Shown one piece after another: positions 2,065-22,466 of a stretch of DNA of 22,466 nt. The stretch spans positions 1-22,466 of the IMG/VR virus record IMGVR_UViG_3300005100_000017; one strand, given 5' to 3'. The stretch's first letter is position 1. The number at the start of each line of letters is the position of its first letter. Under the pieces are notes generated by a model, which saw only the letters and a list, made by a program, of their open reading frames with translations, was not told the origin of the DNA and did no database searches. Origin of the DNA: a virus. A program made the translations under genes and the position numbers.

Positions 2065-3762
2065 ATGGCAAATCAAGGATATGTTTCTTATAATTCGTTA
2101 GGGGGACAATTAGGGAGATTATCACCAATCGAGATCAATCAGACTATGTTAAGTCCGATTCAATCTTTAGAATACACGGATGACAAGCAAATGCGTAAAT
2201 CGGTATTTACTGAGGATTTCTATGTACGTCCGGTCTTCGGACGTCCGAGACTTGGAATCTCATACGCTGAATTAGAGCCGTATGAAGATAACATAATTAT
2301 ACGAATGATAATCACCCACATCATCGATTCCGTTTGTTCAACAGATTTCAAGGTAGTTCCTATCGACGAAGAGGATGAGATATCTGATGCAATGCAGAAT
2401 ACTCTTGATGAGGCAACAGACTTTTTCGAATCTAAAAAATGGATGGAGTCATGGAACAATACAATCAGACGGATGTTACCAGATTTACTCATGTATGATT
2501 GTGGGGTCTTAATCAAGATATTTGGAAAAGAATGTTATGAAAAAGATGGAACGTTGAAGGAAAAAAATGAAACACCACCACTCGAGTTAAGCTCACGTGA
2601 TGGAAGAAGTTTCCTGATCGACTGCGACCCTTATGGTCGCATTCTAAAGTATTGGCAATATTCTTTTATGAATATACAATCAACGCCAATCGCATTCTCA
2701 AAAGATGAGATCATTTACATTATGGGACGACCGAAGTCCCGGTCTGTGTACGGTGTTGCGTCATTACAGATTGTAAAAGATGTAATGGATTACTTGACAG
2801 CTTCTATTGATGCAAACCGGGCATTTTGGGAAAACGGAATGTTTCCGGGAATGCAGATAGACCACCCGGATATTGTAGATCCAGATGAGTTAAAGGCACG
2901 CGCGCAACTTTACAAGGAAACGCTTAAGGGCGAGCACAATTACAACAAGGCACTTATCACGTCAGGCGGTACGAAGGTAACACCATTACAATTCACTAAT
3001 CAACAAAATCAATGGTTAGAGTCGTCTGAATACATGCAAAAGCTTGTATTTGCTTTGTTTAAGATATCACCATCACAATTAGGTTTTACTGAACAAACAA
3101 ACCGTGCAACAGCAATCGTTCAGAGTGAGAATTATAAACAAGAAGGCGTTAAGACAATTCTTACACTTCTCGAAAATTATCTTAATAGAGAAATAATTTG
3201 GAAGTATTTCGGTGAGGATATACTATTCAAATTCGATGATTCACTCGATCTTGCAGATGAAAAGCAACAGGTAGATATTGACCACATCAAACTTACGGAT
3301 GGCACTGCAACGATCAATGAAATTCGATCGCGTGATGGTGGCGAAGAATTCGCGGATGAGGAATGCAATGCACCATTTGCTCAAATGACACTACAAGATA
3401 AGCTGATGAAGTCGGGTATGGAAGAGGAAGAAGAAGGAGAATCCGGCGGTTGGGGTGGAGACGAGGATGAAGAGCCGGGTGAACAGCCAGGTGAAGAAAA
3501 AACTCCCGTAGAGGAAGCCGCACCTGAGACACCAGCCGAGAAGTTTGAAAAAGCTGTGACAGCAAGTGCTGCGATGGGAACTCCTGGTGCGGCAATGATC
3601 CCAGTTGTGATTGACGGAGCAGCTAAAAAGAAAAAGAAGAAAGAAGAAGAGGAGCAGGAAGAGAAAACTAAAGATTCACTCGATAAATGGTCTGTTGACA
3701 CACAGAAAGGTATTGAGAAAGAATTAAAACAGCTTTATAGAGATGGTAATACAAATGATTGA
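2065..3762 (+). CDS. Phage portal protein (HK97/SPP1-like)
   Basis: The portal is the dodecameric ring at the capsid vertex through which DNA is packaged. The 565-residue protein has the family's features: an N-terminal stretch with the first helices (EDNIIIRMIITHIIDSVCST at ~74-93), a central wing and clip region with KDEIIYIMGRPKSRSVYGVA (~213-232) followed by the long helix VKDVMDYLTASIDANRAFW, and the conserved crown and stem motif FKISPSQLGFTEQTNRATA (~332-350). After residue ~415 comes a low-complexity tail rich in Glu, Gly and Pro and then a Lys/Glu run (~526-535), unusual for a portal and perhaps a docking arm for neighbouring proteins. A GAGGT site sits 8 bases before the ATG. Its stop overlaps the start of the next gene by eight bases. 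No terminase gene precedes it here. Confidence 0.92.
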   Translation: MANQGYVSYNSLGGQLGRLSPIEINQTMLSPIQSLEYTDDKQMRKSVFTEDFYVRPVFGRPRLGISYAELEPYEDNIIIRMIITHIIDSVCSTDFKVVPIDEEDEISDAMQNTLDEATDFFESKKWMESWNNTIRRMLPDLLMYDCGVLIKIFGKECYEKDGTLKEKNETPPLELSSRDGRSFLIDCDPYGRILKYWQYSFMNIQSTPIAFSKDEIIYIMGRPKSRSVYGVASLQIVKDVMDYLTASIDANRAFWENGMFPGMQIDHPDIVDPDELKARAQLYKETLKGEHNYNKALITSGGTKVTPLQFTNQQNQWLESSEYMQKLVFALFKISPSQLGFTEQTNRATAIVQSENYKQEGVKTILTLLENYLNREIIWKYFGEDILFKFDDSLDLADEKQQVDIDHIKLTDGTATINEIRSRDGGEEFADEECNAPFAQMTLQDKLMKSGMEEEEEGESGGWGGDEDEEPGEQPGEEKTPVEEAAPETPAEKFEKAVTASAAMGTPGAAMIPVVIDGAAKKKKKKEEEEQEEKTKDSLDKWSVDTQKGIEKELKQLYRDGNTND

Positions 3763-4723
3763 AATAGATTTACGAAAACTTGAACGTGGTACAGGTACAG
3801 CACCCGTGAAGGTCACAAGGGGTGGTAAAACATTCTACCAACAGCGACGTGTTGGTCGGAAAGAAACGACGACGGATAAACCTGGTGCGATGGAAGACAT
3901 ATCTATTAATGATATGAGTGATGATGATATCGACGCAGCGTTTAAAAAGGGTAAACCATTACCACTTACTGTAGATAAGATAACTAAAGATGGTCATACC
4001 ACTAATATATCATTCAGTGAGCCGGGATGGCATGCAACGCTTACGACGCGAAGTATAACGAAAGAAAAGAAAGTTCCTGGTAGGACTATAGTCGAATGGC
4101 GTAAAAAATTCCAAGAAACTGAGATGGAACTCTGGAATGGCACTACTAAAAAGAGTAATTATGCGACAGCAGCCACTCGCGTTGACGTGGATGATGTTGC
4201 AACTGCTAAAGCTAAAGTTACTAAAGGTGCAGAATTAGTAAGGAAACGACTAAAGGGTTCTGTCGGGTTAGATATTGAATATGATTCTAATTATCATTCA
4301 TTCGATACCAAAGAAGAAATTCAACGTAAAGAGAAGGCATCCAGTGAAGTGAAGGCGAAAAAAGAAAGGATAGAACGTGAAGAAGAAGAACGGAAGAGTG
4401 GTGCGTCATCTGGAATTAAGGATATTTCCAAAGAATTAGCTGAGATAATTGAAAGTGGACAATTGAGTGATATATTTGCTAATAAACCTGAAATTTTGTA
4501 TAGTTTAACCGAAAGGATTGTCGCTAATAAGGATGAGGCTATGGGACATATCAAAGATACCAATTCTATCACTGGTGAACCGTCGGATAAAGCTGTGGCT
4601 TTAGGTAAAGCTAATAAATTATTAGCCATGTCTGCCGATGCTGCACACGAATATATAAAAGATCCCGGAAACAGAGCTGAAATTGGAAAATTATTAAATG
4701 TTTTCATGGGAGCTGTTAAGTGA
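3755..4723 (+). CDS. Unknown protein with N-terminal EIDL/GRKE module (322 aa), possible packaged effector
   Basis: I choose the ATG at 3755 (not the in-frame ATG at 3743) because it then begins MIEIDLRKLERG exactly like the next gene at 4747, and the upstream bases are also alike. Residues 1-37 form a module: MIEIDLRKLERG, then VKVTRGGKTFYQQRRVGRKE. After it come INDMSDDDIDAAFKKGKP, a beta-rich segment, a Lys/Glu-rich helix (~190-215, coiled-coil-like) and a helical C-terminus (ISKELAEIIESGQLSDI and onward). No enzyme motif is recognised. The gene overlaps the portal by eight bases, so it is probably co-expressed with it. The shared module and the neighbouring ADP-ribosyltransferase suggest a virion-associated protein; that is inference. 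Confidence 0.75.
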   Translation: MIEIDLRKLERGTGTAPVKVTRGGKTFYQQRRVGRKETTTDKPGAMEDISINDMSDDDIDAAFKKGKPLPLTVDKITKDGHTTNISFSEPGWHATLTTRSITKEKKVPGRTIVEWRKKFQETEMELWNGTTKKSNYATAATRVDVDDVATAKAKVTKGAELVRKRLKGSVGLDIEYDSNYHSFDTKEEIQRKEKASSEVKAKKERIEREEEERKSGASSGIKDISKELAEIIESGQLSDIFANKPEILYSLTERIVANKDEAMGHIKDTNSITGEPSDKAVALGKANKLLAMSADAAHEYIKDPGNRAEIGKLLNVFMGAVK

Positions 4724-4746
4724 TATTATAAAGATGTGGATATAAA

Positions 4747-5949
4747 ATGATTGAAATAGACCTTCGGAAGTTAGAACGTGGTAAGAAAAGTGAATGGCGT
4801 ACCGTTCATCGCGGTGGAAAAACGTTCCAACAACGGTTCAAGGTCGGTAGAAAGGAAACGTCGGAACGTGACATTCCACCAAGTAAGAAGATAATGGATA
4901 TCATAAGGACTGCTGTTGATAAAGGCGAAGAATATGGATTCACGAGTGTCACGGAAGATGGATCGGCAGGTTGGGATGATATCACTATTCCAGGTAGCTA
5001 CGAACCTGCTGTAACTCATATCGATTTTAAAGTGTCGGGTAATACCGTGACCAATATAGCCACCGGTAAAAGTGTGACACTTACAGATAAATTTTTAGAT
5101 TTATCAAGATTGGGTGATGAGATGAAAAGTGGCGCTCTCGGATTATTAGGCGATCTTGATATCAGTGAAGATTTAGGAGTTGCGAAAGATTATAATAAAT
5201 CGTTATCGGCGGACGTGGAAGATATTTCTGATTTTGTTCCAGAATATAGTGAACCTTCAGGAGATGCCGACGAAATGAAGGGTAAATATTCACCGAAAAT
5301 GGGTTTAAAATATTGTTCCAATATACCAACTTTTGGTGCCGAATCTTTAATTTCATCTTTTTGGTTAAGTGGCGCTCCTGAATATGGAAGTCTTATAGGT
5401 GAAAATGTTAGAGATATAATGAAAGGTGAATATAATAAAGATAACATATTACATTCACCATTGAAAGTATTAATGGAAACATCCAAAACAGTATCCAGTA
5501 AATATGGTTCGGATAATATATATCGTGGTGAGACTAATATAAATTCTGCGAAGTCGATAATTGAAGGTATCGATTCAGATGGTAGCGTACAATTATCAGA
5601 TAAGGTTTCAAGTTGGTCCGAAAATGAAAAATTAGCTAAATGGTATTCGTCTGTACATAAGCAACGAACACCGGGTTCACAAACTGAAACGAAATCACAT
5701 GTTATGCTCAAATTAGATAAAGATAACTATTCAGATAATGTCGTATTTGACTATCGTGCTTGCGGTAGTAAATATTATCCAGAACAAGAAGTTACAATTT
5801 ATGGTGGTGGCGTGAAACTTACTGGAGATAATGTGATGGTTAATACTAAAACTCCAAAACGTAAGACTAAGAAATGGATGACATTTAATCAATTTAAATC
5901 TGAAGGTGGGTCAACAGAAGAGTTTATAAACCAAATGAGGTACACATGA
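4747..5949 (+). CDS. Probable ADP-ribosyltransferase with N-terminal EIDL/GRKE module (400 aa)
   Basis: Residues 1-37 repeat the module of the previous gene (MIEIDLRKLERG, RGGKTFQQRFKVGRKE). The C-terminal ~200 residues fit the R-S-E class of ADP-ribosyltransferases, which move ADP-ribose from NAD to proteins: Arg260 in NIYRGETN, a serine motif VSSWSENEKLA (Ser289/Ser291), and the E-x-E motif PEQEVTIYGG (Glu346, Glu348) in the usual place before the last strand. Fold order and spacing match VIP2, C3 and Alt-like enzymes. Phage T4 packs its ART Alt in the head and injects it with DNA; the location beside the portal and the shared module make a similar role plausible here. The middle (~40-180) is unknown. 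It overlaps the next tiny gene by four bases. The target is not predictable. Confidence 0.75.
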   Translation: MIEIDLRKLERGKKSEWRTVHRGGKTFQQRFKVGRKETSERDIPPSKKIMDIIRTAVDKGEEYGFTSVTEDGSAGWDDITIPGSYEPAVTHIDFKVSGNTVTNIATGKSVTLTDKFLDLSRLGDEMKSGALGLLGDLDISEDLGVAKDYNKSLSADVEDISDFVPEYSEPSGDADEMKGKYSPKMGLKYCSNIPTFGAESLISSFWLSGAPEYGSLIGENVRDIMKGEYNKDNILHSPLKVLMETSKTVSSKYGSDNIYRGETNINSAKSIIEGIDSDGSVQLSDKVSSWSENEKLAKWYSSVHKQRTPGSQTETKSHVMLKLDKDNYSDNVVFDYRACGSKYYPEQEVTIYGGGVKLTGDNVMVNTKTPKRKTKKWMTFNQFKSEGGSTEEFINQMRYT

Positions 5950-6068
5950 TGGAACGGAAGAAAGTAGAAATATCTGATGAAGATGGACGAGACCGAATCA
6001 CCAAAGACGACTTACATTTATTCGATGAGATGTCGGATGATGAAGCCGAAGCGGTGTTTGGTGATTGA
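5946..6068 (+). CDS. Tiny acidic protein with MSDD motif (40 aa)
   Basis: The ATG overlaps the stop of the ART gene (ATGA), and the stop abuts the next ATG, an arrangement typical of translational coupling. The product is very acidic and ends LFDEMSDDEAEAVFGD. The piece EMSDDEAEAVF resembles DMSDDDIDAAF in the protein at 3755, so the two may bind the same partner. No family is recognised. Confidence 0.6.
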   Translation: MMERKKVEISDEDGRDRITKDDLHLFDEMSDDEAEAVFGD

Positions 6069-6272
6069 ATGGTCGTAGAAAAACGTGGGAATCAACATTG
6101 CACTATACACTGTCACGGTCCGGACAAGGGTAAAGTTATAAAGTGTTTTCCGACAGAAAAGGAAGCTAACGACCAACATCGTGCTATAATGGTGAATAAG
6201 ATGGTCAAACAGATCGAGATAGACCTTAATAAACTCGATGAGCGAGGAATCAATGACGATAATAATATATAA
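6069..6272 (+). CDS. Small protein with CHxxxHCHGPxKGK motif and C-terminal EIDL motif (67 aa)
   Basis: Starts directly after the previous stop. Residues 8-42 carry NQHCTIHCHGPDKGKVIKCF then TEKEANDQHRAIMVN. The pattern HCHG.(x)KGK.I.C(F/H).(T)K.EA..(H)RAI is one I recognise from small proteins or domains encoded beside viral head genes; its Cys and His residues could bind a metal. The C-terminal third contains KMVKQIEIDLNKLDERG, a copy of the IEIDLxKL motif found at the start of the two genes upstream. A minimal protein carrying this motif next to effectors could be an adaptor. Function unknown. Confidence 0.7.
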   Translation: MVVEKRGNQHCTIHCHGPDKGKVIKCFPTEKEANDQHRAIMVNKMVKQIEIDLNKLDERGINDDNNI

Positions 6273-6411
6273 AATAACTCCGAATAAAGCAATCGAGATA
6301 GATCGTTGGACTAATGGTAACTTCGAGGGACGTTTTTCTGAAAGGAAGATGACCGAAAAAGAGATTATCGACCAATTTAATCGTGGTTATTATAGAACGA
6401 GTGAAATTTAA
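6253..6411 (+). CDS. Small hypothetical protein (52 aa)
   Basis: This frame overlaps the end of the previous gene by 20 bases and begins MTIIIYKITPNKAIEIDRW, followed by FEGRFSERKMTEKEIIDQFN. It has a beta-strand start and a helical end, is protein-like in composition and fills what would otherwise be a gap. No clear ribosome binding site is seen; coupling to the upstream gene could serve. No family recognised. Confidence 0.55.
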   Translation: MTIIIYKITPNKAIEIDRWTNGNFEGRFSERKMTEKEIIDQFNRGYYRTSEI

Positions 6412-6438
6412 TTATAAATGTTGATGAAGGAGTATTAA

Positions 6439-6798
6439 ATGAGTGAATGGAATCAAAAACAACTATTCGGTCGCGTCCGGGATTCTGCGAGATCGATGGA
6501 CCCGGTACTTGGCACGACAGTTAATGCTGCCACTGAGATCATAGATCTCGATACGCGCCAGTTCAAGGACACAGAATTTATAATCGCTAATACGGGTTTA
6601 AATTCACTTTATTACTCCATAAGGGTTCGGAGTGAGTACGATGACGGCACTGATTTCGTACCATTCTCAAATACTATAGCAGCTGGTGAGTCGGATGAGG
6701 CAATACTCGTTAGACATGCCAGAGTTCTAATAGATATGAATTCTCACACAACAGATTCTCATACAACGTATTCAATCAGTGTAATAGGTGGAACATAA
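6439..6798 (+). CDS. Small beta-rich protein, probable virion component (119 aa)
   Basis: An AAGGAG site precedes the ATG by 7 bases. The protein has alternating strands (TEFIIANTGLNSLYYSIRVR, FVPFSNTIAAGESDEAILVR, TYSISVIGGT) without cysteines or a signal peptide, typical of small jelly-roll or immunoglobulin-like virion proteins such as head fibres, decoration or neck proteins. Its stop overlaps the start of the HNH gene that follows (TAATG). It resembles in length and composition the products at 7646 and 12675, which may be relatives in a structural set. Assignment to the virion is inference from composition and position. Confidence 0.7.
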   Translation: MSEWNQKQLFGRVRDSARSMDPVLGTTVNAATEIIDLDTRQFKDTEFIIANTGLNSLYYSIRVRSEYDDGTDFVPFSNTIAAGESDEAILVRHARVLIDMNSHTTDSHTTYSISVIGGT

Positions 6799-8000: not shown

Positions 8001-9203
8001 ATGAAACTCGATTATACTAAAGCTCCGGATATGCCGCCGCAATATGTGGCATATGTTAGTCCGAATTTCCATTACGACACTTATAAACAGACATTCCCGA
8101 CTATACAAGAAGCCATCGATTTTATGTATGGTAAATATGGTTGGGTATTCGGCATGACTATAAATGTATATCCCGGCACATATAACGAGCAGATACATAG
8201 TTTTCCTATATTTTTCATAAAAGGAATTATACACAACGCACCTTCGAGTGAACAAAGGGTTGCAACGCTTTATAATACCGGTGCCGATCCCGATCATTAC
8301 CCATTACGTGCCAATGATGGCGATGGATATATGATTCATAATATGAATATAAAAACGGATGACGGTGGGACTTTTGGGAGACTCGGTAATGATCGATACG
8401 TTTCCTGCAATTTCTCAGGCGGGGCATTCATTGAATCGCTTCAAGACGTAACGATATTCGAATCGTGGGCTGATTGTTCATTTGTGAACTGTCCGGCATT
8501 TAATGTTACGGGTGTTGAGCCACAAGGTAGATATCTCGTATTCGAAAATTGTTGGTTTGGATGGTGGCAAACCATGAGGTTCGAATCCACACACACAGCC
8601 GGAAATGCTGTATTCGATATAGATGGTGGACATTTAGCATTTACGAAATTGTCACTTAAGGGTGACTGGTATCATTTTGCCAAAAATTATCATAGTTACG
8701 GTGCATACCGAACTGATTACGATACTACCAGAGGAATCGTTTATCGGAACGTTACAATCTCGAATGGTATTCATTTCTTTTCTGACCCGATGTCATTTAA
8801 GATGATAGGATGTGAGATGGAAGATGCTGCCGAAATGCCAATTCCTGATGATGAAGCCGACATTACGGCAGATGTTCCCATTACGGATGTTAATTTCCAG
8901 AATAACTCGATGCATAACGGTTTATCCGGCGAAATAGAGATTCAAGGTAAGATAAGGCATGTTGGTGGAACTGAGATAAATAAATATATATCTATACAAG
9001 ACGCTATAGATTCTTTAACTGCGGATGGTATAATTTTCCTACAACCCGGAACTTATGAAGAACAAATACATTCAAGAGCCGAAATTCTTATTCAAGGTAG
9101 GACGAACGAGGGTGTTCCGGCAGTAAAATCTACGATATTATATAATACTGGTGTTGATGAAGATCATTATCCGTTAGGTGATAATGATACATCACGTATT
9201 TAA
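8001..9203 (+). CDS. Beta-helix (pectin-lyase fold) appendage protein, N-terminal part; frame-broken
   Basis: The first 400 codons of what should be a ~1,120-residue protein. Repeated blocks begin with YISIQDAIDSL and LQPGTYEEQIHS, the opening turns of pectin-lyase-type parallel beta-helices found in viral tailspikes and surface proteins. A first, divergent block (~residues 25-325, PTIQEAIDFMYGKYG, NVYPGTYNEQIHS) is followed by the start of a second (from ~327). The frame ends at TAA 9201-9203, in the middle of the second block; the +1 frame continues exactly where the homologous third block would. Compared with the third block there is one extra base between 9180 and 9198. I see no signal peptide, consistent with a virion protein. 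Likely role: host-surface or glycan binding. Confidence 0.8.
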   Translation: MKLDYTKAPDMPPQYVAYVSPNFHYDTYKQTFPTIQEAIDFMYGKYGWVFGMTINVYPGTYNEQIHSFPIFFIKGIIHNAPSSEQRVATLYNTGADPDHYPLRANDGDGYMIHNMNIKTDDGGTFGRLGNDRYVSCNFSGGAFIESLQDVTIFESWADCSFVNCPAFNVTGVEPQGRYLVFENCWFGWWQTMRFESTHTAGNAVFDIDGGHLAFTKLSLKGDWYHFAKNYHSYGAYRTDYDTTRGIVYRNVTISNGIHFFSDPMSFKMIGCEMEDAAEMPIPDDEADITADVPITDVNFQNNSMHNGLSGEIEIQGKIRHVGGTEINKYISIQDAIDSLTADGIIFLQPGTYEEQIHSRAEILIQGRTNEGVPAVKSTILYNTGVDEDHYPLGDNDTSRI

Positions 9204-9840
9204 CATAAGTGATATAACGATTAAGACAGAGCCGGACGAAACCATAGGAAAACTCAGTGGAAGTAATTTCACCGGTGTTGTATTCCAGAACGGTTATTTT
9301 ATAGAAGCAACCACAGATCAAAATATGCTAATGGGTTTATCTGACTGTTCATTTGAGGACACGATGGCATTTAACCTTACAGGAGTTGGATCTGGCGGGC
9401 TCCGTGCAATGACTATTAATGGGTGTTATTTTAACGATTACGCAACACATTCGGTCATAGATTCAACGCATGATGCGACATTAGTTATTGTGAAAAATAC
9501 TATTTTTCATCAGTTTTATCCTGATGTCGGCGGCAATTGGAATGTTGAATATTCGAATTGTCATTCATTCGGAGTTAGTCGGAGTGTAATCAGCACAACA
9601 AATAAGATTGCATATATACAGTGCATATTATCAAATGGCTTACATTTTACGAGTAATCCTGATACAATTATACAATTGTCAACATTTAATGACGGTTGTG
9701 GATATGCGATAACCGGAGAAGACATTACAGCTGATGTAGTTGTCACTAATGTTGATTATGTCCAGAATGTTCAACAGAATGGAATAAGTGGGATGATTCA
9801 GACTGCGGGTGATGTGATAAACGTTGGTGGAGATTCTGTT
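8979..9840 (+). repeat. 861-bp tandem module, copy 1 (862 with extra base)
   Basis: Begins at the codon for N in NKYISIQDAID. It is homologous over its whole length with 9841-10701. The offset between copies is 862 before the frame break and 861 after, which locates one extra base at about 9180-9198. Confidence 0.85.
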
Positions 9841-11370
9841 AATAGATATTATTCGATTCAAGATGCAATTAATTCATTGCCTGATGGTGGTGTTATTTCT
9901 CTCCAACCCGGAATCTATGAGGAACAAATACATTCTACCGCTAATATTCTTATTCAGGGTAGAACAAATGAAGGTGTCCCAGCGGTAAAGGCTACAGTGA
10001 TATATAATACAGGTGTGGATTCGAATCATTGGCCATTAGGTGGAGATGATACTGACTTATTTAATATAAGTGATATAACAATTAAAACGGAGCCAGATGA
10101 GGTCATAGGGAAACTCAGTGGGAGCAATTTCACTGGAGTTGTATTTGAGAACGGTTATTTTATTGAATCAACTGCAGATCAGGGCATGTTAATGGGATTA
10201 GATGCGTGTTCATTTGAAAATTCAATGGCATTTAATCTCACAGGAATTGGCTCGGGTGGAATACGCGCAATGACTATTAATGGATGTTATTTCAACGATT
10301 ATGCGACTCATTGGGTGATGGATTCGACACATGATAACACATTAGTTATCGTGAAGAATACTATCTTTCATAATGCTTATCCGGATATTGGAGGTAATTG
10401 GAGAGTTGAATTCTCAAATTCCCATTCGTTTGGTCCGAGTCGAAGTTTGATAAGTACGACTGGTAGAATTGCATATATACAATGTATCATATCTAATGGA
10501 TTACATTTTACGAGTAATCCGGATACAATTATGCATCTTAATACGTTCACAGATGACTGTGGATATGCGATTACAGGTGCGGATATAACTTCCACGGTAG
10601 ATGTTACGGATGTTGATTATGTGCAGAACGTTCAGCAGAATGGTCTTGCAGGCGAGATTAAGATTCTCGACCCGATTAAGAATGTCGGCGCGAATGCTAT
10701 TAATCGATATATCAGTATTCAGGATGCCATAGATTCTATCACTACGAGCGGAATTGTTGATTTACATCAGTCGTTCACTGGATTAGATGAATTATTAATT
10801 CCTAATAATACAAAAGTGACAATTGACGGTAGAAGAGTGTACTCACTTGCTTTCACAGCCGATATCGTAGAATTAGGACTCGGAGAAGAGTTAATTTTCA
10901 ATAATCTATCAGAAATAACGGGCGGCAACGTTGAAATCAACGGCAATGATGCGAAATTCCACATGCATTCGTGTCCGTGCGGATCAAATACATTGCAGAT
11001 ATTAGCCACATCTGGAACGGGAACTATGGTGCATATACGTGATACTAATATAATGGGGGCTACGGGATGTTCGCCGTTACAGGTTAATTCATTAGATGTA
11101 TCATATCTACTATCATATTCGAGACTCACTGGTGCTATCGGTCAACCTGCAGTTGAATTTACGGTATTATCACTCGATAAGTTAAGGTCGCGATTCAGTA
11201 CGTTTGTGCATGGTGACGGAATTAATAATGCACCACTTACATACACCGGAGCCGGAAAAGTCAGTTTCGCTATGTATTCATGCGGATTGAATGCCGCGTG
11301 GAATCCGGCGAGCTTTACGAACACTATAGGATCAGCGAACAATACGACTGATCCGAATATAGACTTCTGA
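9178..11370 (+). CDS. Beta-helix appendage protein, C-terminal part (continues 8001-9203 in +1 frame)
   Basis: This frame opens at a GTG with no ribosome binding site, and the homologous text starts only at VFNISDITIKTEPDETIGKL (from ~9196), so it is best read as the continuation of the gene at 8001. It contains the rest of the second 287-residue block, a full third block (NRYYSIQDAINSL, LQPGIYEEQIHS, FNISDITIKTEPDEVIGKL), and a fourth block that begins like the others (NRYISIQDAIDSI) but then changes to a different end (~200 residues with GGNVEINGNDAKFHMHSCPC and a Gly/Asn-rich finish). Each block holds cysteine and asparagine-rich helical turns. The ending may be a distinct receptor-binding or trimerisation tip. 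If translated from the GTG alone it would give a truncated but still folded helix. Confidence 0.78.
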   Translation: MIMIHHVFNISDITIKTEPDETIGKLSGSNFTGVVFQNGYFIEATTDQNMLMGLSDCSFEDTMAFNLTGVGSGGLRAMTINGCYFNDYATHSVIDSTHDATLVIVKNTIFHQFYPDVGGNWNVEYSNCHSFGVSRSVISTTNKIAYIQCILSNGLHFTSNPDTIIQLSTFNDGCGYAITGEDITADVVVTNVDYVQNVQQNGISGMIQTAGDVINVGGDSVNRYYSIQDAINSLPDGGVISLQPGIYEEQIHSTANILIQGRTNEGVPAVKATVIYNTGVDSNHWPLGGDDTDLFNISDITIKTEPDEVIGKLSGSNFTGVVFENGYFIESTADQGMLMGLDACSFENSMAFNLTGIGSGGIRAMTINGCYFNDYATHWVMDSTHDNTLVIVKNTIFHNAYPDIGGNWRVEFSNSHSFGPSRSLISTTGRIAYIQCIISNGLHFTSNPDTIMHLNTFTDDCGYAITGADITSTVDVTDVDYVQNVQQNGLAGEIKILDPIKNVGANAINRYISIQDAIDSITTSGIVDLHQSFTGLDELLIPNNTKVTIDGRRVYSLAFTADIVELGLGEELIFNNLSEITGGNVEINGNDAKFHMHSCPCGSNTLQILATSGTGTMVHIRDTNIMGATGCSPLQVNSLDVSYLLSYSRLTGAIGQPAVEFTVLSLDKLRSRFSTFVHGDGINNAPLTYTGAGKVSFAMYSCGLNAAWNPASFTNTIGSANNTTDPNIDF
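9841..10701 (+). repeat. 861-bp tandem module, copy 2
   Basis: A 287-codon unit from NRYYSIQDAIN to just before NRYISIQDAID at 10702. It is the intact comparator for copy 1; many stretches are the same at DNA level (for example around GAACAAATACATTC and ATAAGTGATATAAC). Confidence 0.85.
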
Positions 11371-11388: not shown

Positions 11389-11805
11389 ATGGTAAAATTA
11401 AAAATAGAAATCGATCTCGATGATCTCGGAGATATGAGTACCGATCCGATACCAGTTGATGAAGTTGAACCGAGATTTTTACCAACTGTCGATGCATCAT
11501 ATAATAACGAATGGATGAACAATGAAAAAGTTTGGTATAAGACATACACGAAGGGACAATATAGATGGGTCCGCATCGAAGGACGTGGTGAAGAACCATC
11601 AAAATGTAAAGATATAATCATAAGATTGTCGCCGGGTAATACCGATAAGTTACGAGATGAAGAACGAGGGTACGACTTAGAACATGGCGATGTTATTTAC
11701 GATGAGCATCCGGATAACTTATATATCCAATCAGAGAGATTATCTCAATTGAAGTTATTAGGATATGAAGAAAATGAAAATAATTTACCTAAGTTAATTA
11801 TTTAA
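11389..11805 (+). CDS. Unknown protein with N-terminal IEIDL motif (138 aa)
   Basis: Starts MVKLKIEIDLDDLGDMST, carrying the IEIDLxxL motif of the genes at 3755 and 4747. A second part, VWYKTYTKGQYRWVRIEGRG (~residues 49-68), lines up loosely with the W/RGGK/GRKE half of the module. The rest (DIIIRLSPGNTDKLRDEERG, ERLSQLKLLGYEE) is mixed and acidic. No enzyme motif is recognised. It sits between the beta-helix gene and an HNH gene. The module suggests a virion or packaging link, by inference. Confidence 0.7.
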   Translation: MVKLKIEIDLDDLGDMSTDPIPVDEVEPRFLPTVDASYNNEWMNNEKVWYKTYTKGQYRWVRIEGRGEEPSKCKDIIIRLSPGNTDKLRDEERGYDLEHGDVIYDEHPDNLYIQSERLSQLKLLGYEENENNLPKLII

Positions 11806-13370: not shown

Positions 13371-13544
13371 ATGTTCGAATTCGCCAAAATATATATAAGA
13401 TCATTAATAGCTATTTGTGCTATTACTGTAATGATGTGTTATGGAATGTATCTTGGACAAATCACGCAAGATGCTATACTCGTATCATTGGGTATCATAG
13501 GGACATGTGCATTATTCGATAAACCCAAAATCGGTGAAAATTAA
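13371..13544 (+). CDS. Small membrane protein with two TM segments (57 aa)
   Basis: Two hydrophobic stretches (SLIAICAITVMMCYGMYLG and AILVSLGIIGTCALF) separated by a short loop QITQD make a membrane hairpin, with a basic N-terminus (FAKIYIRS) and a charged tail (DKPKIGEN). The size and shape fit holin-like or small viral membrane proteins, but no sequence family is recognised. AGGTGA lies 4-9 bases ahead of the ATG. It is followed 14 bases later by the receiver-domain gene. Confidence 0.65.
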   Translation: MFEFAKIYIRSLIAICAITVMMCYGMYLGQITQDAILVSLGIIGTCALFDKPKIGEN

Positions 13545-13558
13545 AAGGGGATGGATAT

Positions 13559-13963
13559 ATGAAGGAAATAAGTAATAAAATATTAATTATAGATGATTCT
13601 GTGGCATATTATAAATTACTGATGGCAGAAATGTGTATGCATGGCGATAAGTCGTTTATGGATAATATTTTGTTTGCAGAATCCGCAGAAAAAGGTCTTG
13701 AACTATATGTAATGCATCGTCCGATGGTTTGTCTTGTGGATGTTAGAATGCCAGGACGTTCAGGTATTGATGCGGCTAAAATGATTTGTGATTATGATGA
13801 ATCAGCTAATATAATGCTTGTCACAAATTATTCGAGTGATCCCGATGTCTCGAAGGCGATTTCGGATAAACTTGTATCTGGAGCACTCGATAAAGGCGTC
13901 GGAGTCGGCGTCATTGCAGGATTTATCTCTATATTACTCAAGACCGTGGGGAAATTAGTATGA
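13559..13963 (+). CDS. Single-domain response regulator (CheY-like receiver, 134 aa)
   Basis: All key receiver positions are present: the acidic pair Asp12/Asp13 (ILIIDDS), the phospho-acceptor Asp61 (CLVDVRMPGRSG), Thr89 (IMLVTN) and Lys112 (ALDKG). There is no output domain. AGGGGAT lies just before the ATG. Receivers take phosphate from a histidine kinase; this one is followed by a protein with a phospho-histidine domain (14045), so the two may form a partial relay. The C-terminus GVGVGVIAGFISILLK is more hydrophobic and glycine-rich than usual and may alter helix 5. Virus-encoded receivers are rare. Confidence 0.85.
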   Translation: MKEISNKILIIDDSVAYYKLLMAEMCMHGDKSFMDNILFAESAEKGLELYVMHRPMVCLVDVRMPGRSGIDAAKMICDYDESANIMLVTNYSSDPDVSKAISDKLVSGALDKGVGVGVIAGFISILLKTVGKLV

Positions 13964-14127
13964 CATCATTAAAGAAATCATTTAGAGATATCTACGGATA
14001 TGGATTGCTTTTAGATGTCGCATTATTAAAAGAGGAGTTAGCAGATGAAAGACGAAGAGAAATCGCCGGCACCATTAAACCGGTTCAGTACTACATTCCT
14101 GACGGAACTTCAGGAATTCCAGAATAA
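13960..14127 (+). CDS. Possible small protein overlapping the PocR-HisKA gene (55 aa)
   Basis: The ATG overlaps the stop of the receiver gene (ATGA) and the frame runs MTSLKKSFRDIYGYGLLLDV, a helical middle (KEELADERRRE) and IKPVQYYIPDGTSGIPE. It overlaps the next gene by 83 bases in another frame. A long overlap is uncommon, so either the product is a short coupling peptide or the frame is fortuitous; its composition is protein-like. Confidence 0.4.
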   Translation: MTSLKKSFRDIYGYGLLLDVALLKEELADERRREIAGTIKPVQYYIPDGTSGIPE

Positions 14128-14791
14128 ATTCTCTGAATATTTCAACGTCTCATCTATCATATTTGATAAGGATGGAAAGCAAGTTACGAATCCATCCGGT
14201 TTTAATAAATTTTGTGCTATAATACAGAAGGCGAAGGCGGAAGGCAAATTGTCATCCGATCCCACAAAAACGATAGATGAAATCCATACAAAGAAGTGTT
14301 CATTTTTTAGTAATATTGCTGAAACTGTAATACCGATTAAATATAAAAATGAAACTATATCAACATGGGCAGTCACTAAAAATCGTTTTGGTGATATTCC
14401 ACGAGAAGATATAGATGATGTTGCCGAGAAGATAGGTGCCGATCCCGATAAATTATGGGATGAATTACAAGATATACCAGTTACAACTCAAGAAGAGTTT
14501 GATAGGAGTGTTTATTTTTTACATGAAACAATAACAACACTCATGCGTATGCGCGAACAGGACGATGAATTAAAGGAAAATTTAGTTAAATTTGAAGAAG
14601 TCACGAAAGTGACAGCTCATGATATGCGGGAACATTTACGACTCATATTAGGTTTTATAGAGCTATTGAATGAGAAGTATCATTCGAAATTCGATGCAGA
14701 ATTTGATGCATATTTATATTATATCACAGATTCTGGTAATAAATTAAAAGATGTAGCCGATGATTTGATAGAAAAATGTGAGAAAAGGTAA
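14045..14791 (+). CDS. PocR sensor plus HisKA phospho-histidine domain, no kinase catalytic domain (248 aa)
   Basis: Residues ~15-160 resemble a PocR ligand-binding domain (LQEFQNKFSEYFNVSSIIFD, then DGKQVTNPSGFNKFC, KCSFFSN, VIPIKYKNETISTWAV), a PAS-like sensor common in histidine kinases of methanogenic archaea. Residues ~178-245 form a HisKA dimerisation domain with the H-box VTAHDMREHLRLILGFIELL (His192) and a second helix (YLYYITDSGNKLKDVADDLI). The protein stops there, with no HATPase N, G1 or G2 boxes, and the next gene follows at once, so the catalytic half is lacking by design or by old loss. GAGGAG lies 7 bases ahead of the ATG. It could sequester or rewire host kinases by hetero-dimer formation. 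Confidence 0.78.
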   Translation: MKDEEKSPAPLNRFSTTFLTELQEFQNKFSEYFNVSSIIFDKDGKQVTNPSGFNKFCAIIQKAKAEGKLSSDPTKTIDEIHTKKCSFFSNIAETVIPIKYKNETISTWAVTKNRFGDIPREDIDDVAEKIGADPDKLWDELQDIPVTTQEEFDRSVYFLHETITTLMRMREQDDELKENLVKFEEVTKVTAHDMREHLRLILGFIELLNEKYHSKFDAEFDAYLYYITDSGNKLKDVADDLIEKCEKR

Positions 14792-14795
14792 TTAA

Positions 14796-15029
14796 ATGAC
14801 TATAAAAATAACATCATACCATAGAAAACTCGCATCGGGGCTCCTGATAGTCGGTGGAACGTTCCTAATGTTGGAACATCTTTTCACATATGATAGGTTT
14901 GATTTGCTTGACTTTGTCGGGCATGAATATTATGGTTTAGGTATTATTACTATTGGTTTCTTAGTATCAATAGAATGGTCGCAGTGGAAATCTATGGATT
15001 TAAAACATTTTAAGAATTGGTTTAGGTGA
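14796..15029 (+). CDS. Small membrane protein with two TM segments (77 aa)
   Basis: Two hydrophobic segments (LASGLLIVGGTFLMLEHLF and YYGLGIITIGFLVSIEW) with a short acidic loop (DRFDLLDFVGHE) and a basic tail (WKSMDLKHFKNWFR). It starts four bases after the PocR-HisKA stop. The shape suits a holin or a membrane anchor for the signalling pair, but no family is recognised. Confidence 0.7.
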   Translation: MTIKITSYHRKLASGLLIVGGTFLMLEHLFTYDRFDLLDFVGHEYYGLGIITIGFLVSIEWSQWKSMDLKHFKNWFR

Positions 15030-15033
15030 TTAA

Positions 15034-17019
15034 GTGAATGAAAAACTAACAAAAGCTGAAATAGGGTTTATTGGACAACTTTTGACAGCAATAAGTGTTG
15101 AGAGTTTCCGAAAATTACTTACTGAACATATCTTGAATGCTTTTATTGCCAGCCATAATAATACTAATATAGAATTCAATTTTGGTGGATCGAAACCAGA
15201 TCCAAACACTATAGAATACATAAAAGAGCGCGAGATAATACTTTCAGATAAAACTGCAAGTAAACTCGAAGGCGACCTTAAGTATGAACTTATCACCGCA
15301 TTACAGAATAACGAATCGATAAGTCAGATCACGAAACGGTTAGATAAAATCTTTAAAGATATGATGCCATGGCAACTTGAAAGGATTGCAAGATCGGAGA
15401 TAATTGATGCTCAGAACGCCGGACGTATTTCGGCATATAAAGCGAGTGATGTTGTCGAATATAAGATGTGGATTGCCGCAAAAGGTGGCAAGGGAGAGCG
15501 TGTCTGTGGATTGTGTGCAAGTCTACATGGACAGGTTCAACCAGTTGATAAACCATTCGTCAACCCGAATAACCCCGCGGAATCATGGCAACATCCGATT
15601 TGTCATCCGAATGGACGGTGCACTACGGTGCCACTAACGGATTTACCGGATGATATAATAACAATTAATGGATTAACTTATGACTCGGATGAGAAGATCG
15701 GTAAAGTTGAGATCTCACTGGATTTATTAAAATCCCGACAGAAGAGAAAAGCATGGGTCGTCTTATTTGCTAACGGACATGCAGTTCAGTGTTTCGAGGA
15801 TGAAGTTGATGCCGATTATTTCATAACAACGAGTAATAAAAAGGATGCTGGTTGGTTTGACCTCAACAGTAAGACATATCGGGAACTCAAACCCGGATGG
15901 AAGATTCACAAGAGCGGAACCAAAAAAACATTTAAGACTGATGGCGAGAGTAGAAAAGCTGCTAAAATAGAGATTGATGTAGAACCACTGAGTAAAGGTG
16001 AAAAGCGTATCTGGATTAAGGAAACGGCTAAACGACAAGGTCATTATCGAAGAATAAAGAGCGCGAAATCTGAACCTGAGATTGTTGATCAGGTAGTTAT
16101 TCCTAAAGACTCGTTGCCGATGACGCCGGAGAATTTGAAGGAACTCAAGTCCTTTAAAGATTTAGGCATGTTTGGTGGTATGCATGAATCGGAATCGTAC
16201 TGTGCGAAATTCAATGATAATGCAAATGCAATGTATAAGGTGATAGATAAGGGTGCTATCGCAGGAGAGGTTTCAACTTATAATATTTCAAAGATATTAG
16301 ATTGGGATGTTATTCCAGAAACCATTAAAACCAATATCAAGAGAAAAGGTGATGGTTCATGTCAGAGATGGATAGAGGATGGACGCACGCCTTATGATGG
16401 TTCCGAGTATGTCGAGGATCAGCATGTAATGATAGGAGAGGATCATTTTGATGATTTATCAAAAATAGTTATTTTAGATATGGTGGTAGGAAATTATGAT
16501 CGTCATAGTGGAAATGTGATGATTGATAGTGACAACCGATGTTGGGGAATAGATAATGAGGATTGGGGTACTGCCGGAACGGCAGATGATTTCATAACTT
16601 CATTTGATGAGCGTGCAGGATTGTCAGACGTGGGTGGATTTTCACCGATGATAAGATGGTTAGATAAAAATCTTATAGGAACTGAGTATTTAGCATTACG
16701 AGAGAAGATAGTTGCTAATATGAAGGACGTCGTTGATAATAGAGTCGAGATATTAGATAATTATACTAAATATATAAGATTTGATGATTTCTTAATTGAT
16801 GATTCAATGTCTATAGATGAAGCGATTGGTAATGTCGCTACTAATTTGAAATATATAAAGAAATATTATAGTAAGGAATTAAATCTTGATAATCCAATAC
16901 CAGAATATGATGACCTCTGTCATGAATCAAATGTAGTACCAAATTATCTATTATCTGATGATGATATGAAATCGAAATCTGAAGAAATGTCAGAGAAACT
17001 AAAAAATAAGGACGAGTGA
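15034..17019 (+). CDS. MuF-type head morphogenesis protein fused to a PI3/4-kinase-like domain (661 aa)
   Basis: Starts at GTG behind AGGTGAT. Residues ~75-205 are a phage Mu gpF-like minor head domain: SISQITKRLDKIF, LERIARSEIIDAQNAGRISA, and the cysteine motif CGLC (158-161) with HPICHPNGRC (187-196). Two module copies follow, KVEISLDLLKSRQKRKAW (224-241) and KIEIDVEPLSKGEKRIW (311-327) with RQGHYRR. From ~380 to 610 lies a kinase of the PI3/4-kinase or HipA-like superfamily: Lys402 (MYKV), Glu412 (GEVSTY), catalytic loop GNYDRHSGN (Asp489, Asn494) and metal Asp507 (WGIDNED). MuF proteins in temperate phages often carry C-terminal effector domains, and this fits that plan. MuF acts in or near the head and portal, so the kinase could enter the cell with the DNA. 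The substrate, lipid or protein, is unknown. Confidence 0.85.
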   Translation: MNEKLTKAEIGFIGQLLTAISVESFRKLLTEHILNAFIASHNNTNIEFNFGGSKPDPNTIEYIKEREIILSDKTASKLEGDLKYELITALQNNESISQITKRLDKIFKDMMPWQLERIARSEIIDAQNAGRISAYKASDVVEYKMWIAAKGGKGERVCGLCASLHGQVQPVDKPFVNPNNPAESWQHPICHPNGRCTTVPLTDLPDDIITINGLTYDSDEKIGKVEISLDLLKSRQKRKAWVVLFANGHAVQCFEDEVDADYFITTSNKKDAGWFDLNSKTYRELKPGWKIHKSGTKKTFKTDGESRKAAKIEIDVEPLSKGEKRIWIKETAKRQGHYRRIKSAKSEPEIVDQVVIPKDSLPMTPENLKELKSFKDLGMFGGMHESESYCAKFNDNANAMYKVIDKGAIAGEVSTYNISKILDWDVIPETIKTNIKRKGDGSCQRWIEDGRTPYDGSEYVEDQHVMIGEDHFDDLSKIVILDMVVGNYDRHSGNVMIDSDNRCWGIDNEDWGTAGTADDFITSFDERAGLSDVGGFSPMIRWLDKNLIGTEYLALREKIVANMKDVVDNRVEILDNYTKYIRFDDFLIDDSMSIDEAIGNVATNLKYIKKYYSKELNLDNPIPEYDDLCHESNVVPNYLLSDDDMKSKSEEMSEKLKNKDE

Positions 17020-18313: not shown

Positions 18314-19603
18314 ATGGAGAAAAATGAAGAAGATAATAATTTTGAATATATTTTGAATTTACAGAAACTTGAAACTGGAGATGATAACAGACTTATCATT
18401 GCGGGAATGTGTTCATCCGGTGACATCGATCATGATGGTGAACGTGTTGATATGGATTCACTTAAGTCACAGTTCCTTAAATACATGGAGAATCCCGTCT
18501 TACGGTATTTCCATGGAAAGGATAGTAGAAACCCGGACGCGATAGGTAAAGCGATACCTGAGTACACCGATACGTCAGGGAAAACATACAAGACGGAGTT
18601 TACGGATAACGGGCCGTTCATCGTGGCAGAGATATCGCAAGCTGACGACGTGGCATCAATTCGCACAAAAATCGTTGAGAAGAACTTAAGGGGACTTTCA
18701 ATCGGTGGGCGTGCAAAACGTGTAAAAGCGTGGGATGCAACACTTGGTAAAGATGTAAACAATGTTATTGTATCACGATGGAACGAAACGAGTGTTGTAG
18801 ATCTACCTGCATCAAAGACAAGCTACTTTGAAGTACTTAAAGCGGCTTGCACTGGTGATAATTGTCCTAATAATATAGAATTAATCGAGGAAACCGACCC
18901 AATTGTGGATCAGGCAGTTTTAAAATTTGAAGAGATAATTAATGAGAACGCAGAGATGAAAGACACGTTGAAAAAGCTTGAATCACATGTTCAAGCATTG
19001 AAACGTGCCAATGACCCCGTGACAGTCATTACGGGTGAGGAAAACGAAAATAATGATCACATTTCCACAATAAAAAAAGCGGAAGTGGTAGAAATCGGAG
19101 GTAACACTATGGAACAAGAAGATGGTATTGTAAGATTAGAAGTCCCGGAGCTTGAGGAGTTTATCAAGAGCACGGTTGACACGATGGTAGAAGAGCGTGA
19201 GACAGTTGAGAAACTTGAGGACTACGATAGACTCGTACGCGAAATCAAAGATATGCGAGCTAAAATCGAGGGTCTTGAGGCAGCGGCTAAAGCCAATGCA
19301 AAAGCACTACCGGAAGGTAAACAGACGGCTATGAAGTCTGAAGGCGATATCGAGGACGCTGAGGTTATCGAGAAGGCAGCTAAGAAGAAGAAAGAGCCTG
19401 AGAAAGAGTATGATGAGGATGGTAACGAGATCGTCGACCCGGCAGACATGAAAATGAAGAAAATAGAAGCCGAAATCGAAGAACTTAAGTCAAGTCCTCT
19501 TTACAAAGCGCAACAGGACGAAGTTATAGTCGAGAAATCCGAGGCTACTCCGGCAACTGGCGTACTTTCAGGCGTGATTGCGGCACATTACGGAGGTAAC
19601 TAA
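18314..19603 (+). CDS. Prohead protease fused to scaffold (429 aa)
   Basis: The ATG at 18314 with GGAGG 10 bases upstream is preferred over in-frame upstream starts. Residues ~20-180 match the HK97-type prohead protease (serine peptidase family U35/S78): His67 (LRYFHGKD), the glycine-rich GKA, Ser129 (RGLSIGGRAK) and WNETSVVDLPA. It would cleave scaffold and capsid N-termini during head maturation. From ~190 onward is a long helical, Glu/Lys-rich region (MKDTLKKLESHVQALKRAND; MKMKKIEAEIEELK) fitting an internal scaffold. Residues 10-22, FEYILNLQKLETG, weakly echo the EIDLxKL motif of other genes. The capsid gene follows after one base. An internal ribosome binding site and start (19097-19111) suggest a separate scaffold product. 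Confidence 0.88.
   Translation: MEKNEEDNNFEYILNLQKLETGDDNRLIIAGMCSSGDIDHDGERVDMDSLKSQFLKYMENPVLRYFHGKDSRNPDAIGKAIPEYTDTSGKTYKTEFTDNGPFIVAEISQADDVASIRTKIVEKNLRGLSIGGRAKRVKAWDATLGKDVNNVIVSRWNETSVVDLPASKTSYFEVLKAACTGDNCPNNIELIEETDPIVDQAVLKFEEIINENAEMKDTLKKLESHVQALKRANDPVTVITGEENENNDHISTIKKAEVVEIGGNTMEQEDGIVRLEVPELEEFIKSTVDTMVEERETVEKLEDYDRLVREIKDMRAKIEGLEAAAKANAKALPEGKQTAMKSEGDIEDAEVIEKAAKKKKEPEKEYDEDGNEIVDPADMKMKKIEAEIEELKSSPLYKAQQDEVIVEKSEATPATGVLSGVIAAHYGGN
19097..19111 (+). promoter_or_regulatory. Internal ribosome binding site and start in the protease gene
   Basis: GGAGGT is followed 6 bases later by an in-frame ATG. The leader, GGAGGTAACACTATGG, closely resembles that of the capsid gene, GGAGGTAACTAAAATGG. 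Such a strong site in the middle of an ORF at the protease-scaffold border is unlikely by chance. Confidence 0.65.
19109..19603 (+). CDS. Nested scaffolding protein from internal start (164 aa)
   Basis: In frame with the protease gene, the internal ATG gives MEQEDGIVRLEVPELEEFIK and the whole coiled-coil tail, without the protease domain. Nested scaffolds with their own start, as in phage lambda C/Nu3, are known for this gene pair. The product would be an acidic helical protein with KKKKEPEKEYDED and a C-terminus GVIAAHYGGN; scaffold C-termini often contact the capsid protein. Supported by the ribosome binding site and domain border only. Confidence 0.6.
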   Translation: MEQEDGIVRLEVPELEEFIKSTVDTMVEERETVEKLEDYDRLVREIKDMRAKIEGLEAAAKANAKALPEGKQTAMKSEGDIEDAEVIEKAAKKKKEPEKEYDEDGNEIVDPADMKMKKIEAEIEELKSSPLYKAQQDEVIVEKSEATPATGVLSGVIAAHYGGN

Positions 19604-19604
19604 A

Positions 19605-20654
19605 ATGGCAAAAGACGGATGGAATGGTGCAGGTGAAATTGATCACCAGAACCTATATAAAATGAGTTTCGGGGATCTCCCGGATGAAGCAATCTATGAT
19701 GACGGTATGAATCATATTCGAACTTTCGCAAAGGGCGAGGCTCTTGTGACAGAAACCGGTGAGGGCGAATTAGCAAAGGCAGTTAACGTTGGTGCGGCTT
19801 CTGGTGTCGCAGGATACGCATATACGCCTATCGTTTGGGATCAGGCAGTGGTTGATATCACACGTAAGATGACACCACTTTTAGGTCTTGTTCCGAAAGT
19901 AACAAATCAGGGTAAAGTAGCACAGTATTACCGTGTTACTGCACGCGGTGCAGCAACGTGGGGCGATGAGGATCCAAGTCTAAATGAGGCAGATGACACC
20001 AAAGAAGAGGCAAGCGCGCCTATCAGGTATCTACGTGTCACCGGACGTGTAACAGGTGTAGCACAGATCGCAGGCGCTCACTTCGAGAGTTCAATGCAGA
20101 GAGAAGTTCTCAATAAGACTCAGTCAGTAAATGAGGCAATTGAGGCGTCGATTCTTACTGGTAACAACGCAACAAATCAGTTCCAGCCAGACGGACTCCA
20201 GCAGGTTTTAACGTCTAATTCTTCACCTCAGGGTGGGGCTATTACTCTATCAGCAGTTAGAAAACTCGTTAGTGACTGTTTTGTCAATAAGGGCGCTCCT
20301 AACCTGATTATAACAGATCCGTATACCGCTGATGATCTTGTCGAGCAGATTATGGATTATACGAAATATGTGGATCCTAATATCACCGTAGCATGGGGTT
20401 TACAACTTCCAAGTGTCCAGACAGTAGTTGGAAGACTACCGATTCTTGCAAGTCAGTTTATGCCGGTTGCGACAACTGAGAGACGCCTATTCTGCGTCAA
20501 TACGAACTTCCTGCAACAGAGGGTTTTAAAGGATGTTTCGTTTGAGCGACTGGCGAAGACTGGGGACAGCGAGAAGTTCTTCCTATCAACGTATAGGACG
20601 TTCATCAATAAGTTCCCTGAGGGCATGGGACAGCTTACTGAGATAGCAGATTGA
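19605..20654 (+). CDS. HK97-fold major capsid protein (349 aa)
   Basis: GGAGGT lies ahead of the ATG. The protein has the features of HK97-type capsid proteins: an N-terminal arm, a strand-rich E-loop region (YRVTARGAATWGDED), the helix around NEAIEASILTGN with the ILTG motif typical of this fold, a P-domain and a C-terminal A-domain (ITDPYTADDLVEQI, GRLPILASQF, FFLSTYRTFINKFPEG). Position directly after the protease/scaffold gene is the usual order. It shows no long N-terminal delta domain, in keeping with a separate scaffold. Codon use and GC are higher than in the HNH genes, consistent with high expression. Confidence 0.9.
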   Translation: MAKDGWNGAGEIDHQNLYKMSFGDLPDEAIYDDGMNHIRTFAKGEALVTETGEGELAKAVNVGAASGVAGYAYTPIVWDQAVVDITRKMTPLLGLVPKVTNQGKVAQYYRVTARGAATWGDEDPSLNEADDTKEEASAPIRYLRVTGRVTGVAQIAGAHFESSMQREVLNKTQSVNEAIEASILTGNNATNQFQPDGLQQVLTSNSSPQGGAITLSAVRKLVSDCFVNKGAPNLIITDPYTADDLVEQIMDYTKYVDPNITVAWGLQLPSVQTVVGRLPILASQFMPVATTERRLFCVNTNFLQQRVLKDVSFERLAKTGDSEKFFLSTYRTFINKFPEGMGQLTEIAD

Positions 20655-21519: not shown

Positions 21520-22466
21520 ATGATGAAGATAATTTTATTAGCGATAGCACTATTAATCGCATCGGTCGCTACAGTAGCGGCTGACGATGCACCTTCGATG
21601 TGGATGGTGCAGGATGGGGCTGACATTAGATTAATGGTCAACACGAGTGCGGATTCGATGTATATGCAGGCGGATATTAATTTCGATCCGGCGGCTATTA
21701 ATATAACAGATATTGACTTTACGGGTAGTCCGTGGACAGTATTATCAGGAACAGGTTGGTCAAATCAAGGGAATTATATTAGATTTGCATTAACGAATCT
21801 GGCCGATCCAGGTACGCCGGCGGGGGAGTATCAGATAGCACTGATGTCAGTCGATTGTATTGTGGCTGGAGATACGATTGTTGGAGCTACGGAAATATTA
21901 CCAGTTGATTTAGTTCCAGTCGATCTTACGTATACATGTCCAGACGTGGAGCCGCCAGCAACAGACGCGGTGATTGCGATAGGAGATGCGACGGGAATTA
22001 TTACATTACCGATCACGGTTGTTAATGCCGGCAGTGCAGGATCTTGTGATGTTACTCTGACGTATAATCCTTTATCAGTGACGGTAACCGAAGTGGCATC
22101 TGGGGACATGGATCACACTTATATGAATATCGCGAATATTGCTGATGGCTGGATAAGAGTAGGTGCGTTCCAAGGAGAATCCGCCGGGTTAGATAATTTC
22201 ACGATTGCGAACGTTGCGCTTGCACCGGTAGCAGGTGGATCAACATGTGCTCTCACGCTGACCGTGACAACCCTTACGGATGATACACCGGAATGTGTAG
22301 ATATAGCATACACGATATCATCAGGAACATATACCATAGTGACGGGTGGCGACGCAGATGGTGACGGTACTGTTGACTTTGGTGATGTTGTATATATAAC
22401 AGGATATGTTATTGGATTGCCGGGATATGAGACAATTAATGAGGACTTTGCAGATGTCAATGGTGA
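21520..22466 (+). CDS. Secreted cohesin-like protein with dockerin (3' partial)
   Basis: The ATG at 21520 follows AGGGGGA. The frame is open to the window end (315 codons). Residues 1-21 are a signal peptide (MMKIILLAIALLIASVATVA). Residues ~22-140 and ~148-273 are two beta-sandwich domains of cohesin type; the second shows VVNAGSAGSCDVTLTYNPLS, TVTEVASGDM, VGAFQGESAGLDNFTIANVA and IAYTISSGTYTI, closely following archaeal cohesins. From 277 starts a dockerin: GDADGDGTVDFGDVVYITGY with perfect calcium ligands, and the second loop (FADVNG) is cut by the window end. Cohesin and dockerin in one chain can self-assemble at a surface. It could also bind the dockerin protein at 1-465. It is separated from the head genes by a terminator. 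Confidence 0.82.
   Translation, partial: MMKIILLAIALLIASVATVAADDAPSMWMVQDGADIRLMVNTSADSMYMQADINFDPAAINITDIDFTGSPWTVLSGTGWSNQGNYIRFALTNLADPGTPAGEYQIALMSVDCIVAGDTIVGATEILPVDLVPVDLTYTCPDVEPPATDAVIAIGDATGIITLPITVVNAGSAGSCDVTLTYNPLSVTVTEVASGDMDHTYMNIANIADGWIRVGAFQGESAGLDNFTIANVALAPVAGGSTCALTLTVTTLTDDTPECVDIAYTISSGTYTIVTGGDADGDGTVDFGDVVYITGYVIGLPGYETINEDFADVNG

Follow-up and report, generated by a model that had tools for sequence, protein, structure and literature searches.

What could a virus gain from a two-component pair whose kinase part is missing? The question is raised by IMG/VR virus record IMGVR_UViG_3300005100_000017, analyzed here over its whole length of 22,466 bases (the window). In it, a gene for a stand-alone receiver (REC) precedes a gene for a PocR sensor joined to the phosphotransfer and dimerization hairpin (DHp, the HisKA domain) of a histidine kinase. 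PocR sensing combined with a redirected host phosphoryl flow is, in our view, the most economical reading of this pair, and the evidence for it and for its rivals is weighed below.

Genomic setting and probable host

The sequence-only reading had placed the pair in a viral head cluster, and this setting holds. On the plus strand, the window carries a portal protein gene at 2065 to 3762 (PF04860, 6.6e-31; phrog_2662, 1.7e-41), a MuF-type head protein gene at 15034 to 17019 (PF04233, 3.3e-11), and an SU10-type major capsid protein gene at 19578 to 20654 (PF17236, 4.6e-23). The sole relative of the capsid protein in the annotated phage collection is the capsid of Haloarcula hispanica tailed virus 2 (HHTV-2), at 24% identity. 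The stretch between the portal gene, its upstream anchor, and the MuF gene, the downstream anchor of the cassette, is an accessory interval. The REC and PocR-DHp genes lie at its downstream end, inside the head-gene block and co-directional with the portal, MuF, and capsid genes. A scan for bacterial-type promoters gave no excess over shuffled sequences. Among the related viruses, the L003 record encodes a family B polymerase, an RFC-like AAA protein, and an ATP-dependent DNA ligase, and the L009 record encodes an anaerobic ribonucleotide reductase. Because of these replication genes, the reductase, and the HHTV-2-like capsid, the window probably derives from a tailed virus of an anaerobic archaeon, with a methanogen as a possible host.

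A complete receiver and a sensor without an ATPase domain

The receiver gene (13559 to 13963, plus strand) encodes 134 amino acids, with PF00072 as the sole domain (E=1.1e-12; 48.5 bits against a cut-off of 30.2). The protein has no output domain and carries the whole phosphorylation site, as had been claimed from the sequence: Asp12, Asp13, Asp61, Thr89, and Lys112 are present at these positions, the composition of an REC-only regulator. All five are invariant in the three viral copies known (see below), in which 43 of the 134 receiver columns are invariant, so that their joint conservation would have a chance probability of about 0.003. The PDB matches of the receiver include Spo0F and CheY.

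The second protein (14045 to 14791, plus strand, 248 amino acids) combines a strong PocR match over residues 20 to 169 (PF10114, 4.3e-23; 82.3 bits against a cut-off of 23.9) with a HisKA match over residues 186 to 242 (PF00512, E=9.4e-4) that falls under the Pfam cut-off in the window copy. The HisKA profile is matched by all three viral copies, the best at 2.6e-6, and His192, Asp193, and Arg195 are invariant among them. The PocR sensor and the H-box histidine proposed earlier are thus borne out, the latter by a weak profile match together with the three copies. The absence of an ATPase domain was confirmed as well: in a search of all frames, HATPase_c (PF02518) matched neither the window nor any of four related records (20 to 73 kb), and it matched in 14 of 14 control genomes. 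A catalytic domain hidden by a frameshift, which the earlier reading had named as a possible refutation, is ruled out for the deposited sequence, since none of the six frames gave a match.

An AlphaFold2 model drew on an alignment of ten related sequences and reached a mean pLDDT of 69.8; an earlier run on three sequences had given a pLDDT of 57, and the addition of cellular relatives raised it. The model contains a long helix (residues 149 to 215) bearing His192 and a second helix (218 to 247), which together form a complete DHp hairpin, and the protein stops one residue past the second helix. The modeled hairpin aligns to the DHp of GacS over 70 residues (1.8 Å, 23% identity) and also to those of CpxA and ERS1. 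Foldseek returned zero matches for the model at E<=0.001 against the PDB and BFVD, and we used the matches of DHp length alone, as helical-bundle matches are partly generic. Since the model helices align with known DHp hairpins, the truncation lies at the DHp/CA boundary and leaves the hairpin for phosphotransfer and dimerization complete.

The PocR-DHp protein has the DHp with phosphoacceptor histidine of an orthodox histidine kinase and lacks the HATPase_c domain. It shows the features of nonenzymatic histidine kinase-like proteins, namely, an N-terminal sensor, a HisKA with conserved histidine, and no HATPase. It has no C-terminal domain after the DHp, as a member of the Spo0B family would, and Spo0B chains are absent from the PDB matches of the PocR-DHp profile. 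The complete hairpin without a kinase domain suggests a likeness to Spo0B in working, and we do not claim family membership.

PocR domains are predicted to bind small hydrocarbon derivatives (Anantharaman and Aravind 2005, as cited in PMC9768040). Three cysteine positions of the domain are common to the cellular relatives and to the copies in L003 and L008. The window protein keeps two of them (Cys57 and Cys85), with Ser at position 70, and in this region lacks 6 residues present in L003 and L008. Because of the lost cysteine and the deletion, the ligand response of the window PocR may be altered.

Gene coupling and conservation among related viruses

Two small genes that the earlier reading did not include adjoin the pair. 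A micro-ORF of 55 amino acids (13960 to 14127, plus strand; motif DIYGYG.LLD) overlaps the receiver stop with its start (ATGA) and the PocR-DHp start with its end. Its homologues lie at 5156 to 5293 in L003 (44% identity) and, more weakly, at 8319 to 8441 in L008, such that a micro-ORF of about 40 to 55 codons, overlapping at both ends, stands between the two genes in all three viruses. As the micro-ORF overlaps both of its neighbors, the three frames are probably translationally coupled. The alternative that read-through fuses REC and PocR was considered and rejected: the two share a common frame in all three viruses, yet stops intervene (several in the window and L008, three in L003). Directly upstream of the receiver, a 57-amino-acid protein with two transmembrane segments is encoded at 13371 to 13544 (plus strand), with homologues in the same place in L003 (4456 to 4617) and L008 (7607 to 7774). 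Since L009 has this mini-gene (about 11087) without the pair, we treat it as a neighbor and not as a certain module member. The membrane ORF of 77 amino acids on the other side (14796 to 15029) was discarded as a module component, as L003 and L008 show no synteny for it. In the distant relative L010, a homologue of 50% identity occupies an unrelated position (20078 to 20350), which marks the ORF, by sequence comparison, as a mobile accessory gene.

Recurrence of the pair in related viruses was the test named beforehand, and the pair did recur. Among nine related virus contigs recruited by major capsid protein scans, L003 and L004/L008 carry both the REC and PocR-DHp genes in the same order, separated by the one small ORF and placed just upstream of the MuF homologue. 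Identity to the window is 67% (L003) and 39% (L008) for the receiver and 46% and 39%, respectively, for the PocR-DHp protein. Profile scans with the two families found, among viruses, the same two records and no others; scans with either protein alone, run against viral and genome collections, found nothing, and relatives of the PocR-DHp protein were absent from the phage collection. Neither a PocR domain nor a receiver is present in two long relatives (73 and 59 kb). The shorter L006 contig gave no receiver match, and a single small ORF separates its portal and MuF genes. The contigs L002, L005, L007, and L011 do not span this interval. In L010, a weak tblastn match pointed to a receiver candidate, which proved to be a different, HTH-like protein in a record without PF00072.

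As judged from these alignments, the pair is no accident, because two related viruses hold both genes in the same order and place with invariant phosphotransfer residues. Furthermore, its retention in the diverged L003 and L008 and its lack in other relatives indicate an accessory trait that belongs to one subclade and has outlasted considerable divergence.

The H-box favors phosphotransfer over phosphatase activity

The three viral H-boxes read HD[ML]RE[HSD]L. They retain the histidine, an acid at H+1, and a basic residue at H+3, and carry Glu at H+4 and His, Ser, or Asp at H+5, where a HisKA phosphatase would have Thr or Asn and Pro or Gly, respectively. In full-length bacterial relatives the H-box is HEIRTP, and plasmid-borne kinases of Azospirillum and Haloterrigena have HDLRAP and HDLQEP. 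Mutagenesis of CrdS showed that the acid after the histidine is needed for phosphorylation of the histidine by the kinase, that Thr or Asn at H+4 is needed for phosphatase activity, and that mutants without phosphatase activity transfer phosphate almost as fast as the wild type (PMC3510030). Similarly, the T221A and P222A substitutions abolish the phosphatase activity of VicK (PMC3582566). An acidic H+4 in CrdS (N375D) abolished kinase activity (PMC3510030), and kinases of the HDLQEP type also carry Glu at this position. Phosphotransfer by the viral DHp is therefore plausible from its residues, and phosphatase activity is disfavored because the residues for it at H+4 and H+5 are lost in all three H-boxes. 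The PocR-DHp protein cannot autophosphorylate, as it has no ATPase domain. These results refine the earlier proposal of a phosphate drain or decoy: its phosphotransfer part stands as plausible, and phosphatase action is disfavored.

Cellular relatives and comparable systems

Full-length cellular PocR-HisKA-HATPase kinases align over viral residues 18 to 243 at about 21 to 23% identity, and no closer candidate for a donor was found among the cellular kinases. The suggestion that the viral protein is the N-terminal half of a host kinase thus agrees with the extent of the alignment, whereas a donor is missing at this level of identity. In kinases from Lachnospiraceae (L014 to L021) and Azospirillum plasmids, PocR is followed by HisKA as in the viral protein; these kinases, however, continue into an ATPase domain (and into REC and Hpt domains in L014) where the viral protein stops, and have HEIRTP or HDLRAP H-boxes unlike the viral ones.

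Counterparts in kind exist in archaea. The literature describes both REC-only regulators and proteins with a HisKA and no HATPase from archaeal cells (Galperin et al. 2018, PMC5847659), and their roles are largely untested (PMC5847659). Such nonenzymatic proteins share with the viral one a sensor, a C-terminal HisKA with its histidine, and the absence of HATPase. They are cellular, mainly from Archaeoglobi and Methanomicrobia (PMC5847659), whereas the protein described here is viral, coupled to a receiver gene, and changed at H+4 and H+5 in all copies. AF_1472 of Archaeoglobus fulgidus (PMC5847659) has the same set of parts (receiver, sensor, HisKA, and no HATPase), but as a single fused cellular protein with PAS/GAF sensors instead of two proteins with a micro-ORF and PocR. 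In Bacillota, Spo0F and Spo0B likewise pair an REC-only protein with a DHp phosphotransferase without a working kinase domain, and Spo0B also has no Pro at H+5; it differs in having Asn in place of the viral Glu at H+4, a domain C-terminal to the DHp, and no PocR sensor. The presumed ancestor of Spo0B is a kinase that was stripped of its other domains (PMC12826061). We found no evidence for common descent of the viral pair with Spo0F/Spo0B.

Phage protein families include receiver-like and kinase-like ones. The phage protein PIT4 (PMC10714779) acts on host two-component systems, as we propose here, but it binds host histidine kinase domains directly and is not described as a HisKA/REC pair. 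In the literature searched, mostly outside subscription journals, no viral pair of a receiver and a kinase-less sensor-DHp protein was found. Consequently, a conserved and coupled viral pair with an H-box signature of its own looks new, and its kind is known in archaea.

Proposed function and rival explanations

We propose that the pair is a virus-borne phosphotransfer module without a kinase, similar in working to Spo0F/Spo0B and gated by PocR, which diverts or relays host signals; to this we assign an even chance. The PocR-DHp protein would form a DHp four-helix-bundle dimer, and His192 would take phosphate in trans from the ATPase domain of a host kinase or, alternatively, be charged in reverse from a phosphorylated host receiver. 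Phosphate would then pass between His192 and Asp61 of the viral receiver in a manner gated by PocR occupancy, and host two-component signaling would be diverted or relayed during infection. The proposal is weakened by the distribution of the pair, which is confined to three virus lineages and absent from at least two long relatives, by the loss of CrdS kinase activity with an acidic H+4, and by the degenerate cysteine position of the window PocR. Because the kinase part is absent and two distant relatives keep the pair in place, it probably taps host signaling and does not signal alone. A bolder reading, that archaeal tailed viruses keep such a pair among their head genes as a dedicated tap, which draws phosphate from host two-component networks and rewires them under the control of a host metabolite, is more tentative and somewhat doubtful at present.

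The hairpin might instead work without any phosphotransfer. Hetero-dimerization with host kinases is a serious rival: the viral DHp may enter or grip host kinase dimers and block or re-gate them in a dominant-negative way, and the receiver may merely compete for kinase docking. The complete dimerization hairpin in the model would allow it, the RetS/GacS DHp co-complex (7n0e) is a precedent, and PIT4 binds the kinase domains of several host kinases and inhibits motility (PMC10714779). However, this explanation accounts neither for the retention of His192, Asp193, and the five receiver residues in three viruses nor for the coupling to a receiver gene, and we consider it unlikely. Another reading is that the DHp dephosphorylates host or viral receivers in one PocR ligand state, a role suggested for cellular HisKA proteins without HATPase (PMC5847659); the DHp of EnvZ, moreover, shows phosphatase activity without its catalytic domain (Zhu et al. 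2000, as cited in PMC3510030). Nevertheless, all three viral copies carry the Glu at H+4 and the His, Ser, or Asp at H+5, and substitutions at these positions kill the phosphatase activity of CrdS and VicK (PMC3510030, PMC3582566), which makes it improbable. The Spo0F/Spo0B-like reading is preferred over it because the histidine, the acid, and the basic residue are kept and the phosphatase residues are lost.

The partner of the pair could also be the virus itself, as in an internal switch for, e.g., late-gene timing or assembly, fed with phosphate by a host kinase or by acetyl phosphate. The position among co-directional head genes is in line with this, as is a receiver without a DNA-binding output domain, whose output would be protein contacts. 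Against it, the pair is absent from long relatives that have the same head genes, and no viral target has been identified; such a switch is, in our judgment, quite unlikely. Finally, the pair could be a functionless passenger, the decaying remnant of a captured host kinase operon, as the missing ATPase domain and the deletion and lost cysteine of the window PocR might suggest. This is hard to reconcile with the persistence of one truncated form, with its frames intact and its sites unchanged, in three viruses whose receivers diverge down to 39% identity, or with codon position 2 changing far less than position 3, and it appears highly improbable. Under the preferred phosphotransfer reading, if true, a virus would plug into host phosphorelays and not bring a full two-component system. 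The viral pair also offers a small, separable test case for the function of kinase-less DHp proteins.

Other features of the interval and its relatives

The MuF protein of the window (15034 to 17019) carries at its C terminus a region that resembles PI3/PI4 kinases (PF00454, E=2.2e-5, below the cut-off). The MuF protein of L003 (263 amino acids) is without this region, and L009 has two adjacent separate copies of it (4864 to 5733 and 5748 to 6509). By eye, the MuF gene of L006 (5914 to 7701) shows an apparent intein-like insertion. An intein splicing domain is also present in the anaerobic ribonucleotide reductase encoded by the L009 record (L034, 3593 to 6370). Many proteins of the portal-MuF interval in the window, L008, L003, and L009 have in common a short motif resembling (M)IEI[ND]L..L, after which a stretch rich in K and R, W[VI]K.T.KR.GH.R.IK, often comes; the window sites are at 3743 to 5949, at 11389 to 11805, and around residue 311 of MuF. 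The motif is possibly a shared targeting or processing tag. At 8001 to 11370, two adjacent ORFs of the window (400 and 730 amino acids) both match a single L003 protein of 549 amino acids, which suggests a duplicated or rearranged gene. The window ends within a protein with a cohesin domain and a dockerin-like repeat (21520 to 22464, running off the end), which by eye resembles the product of 6528 to 7541 in L008.
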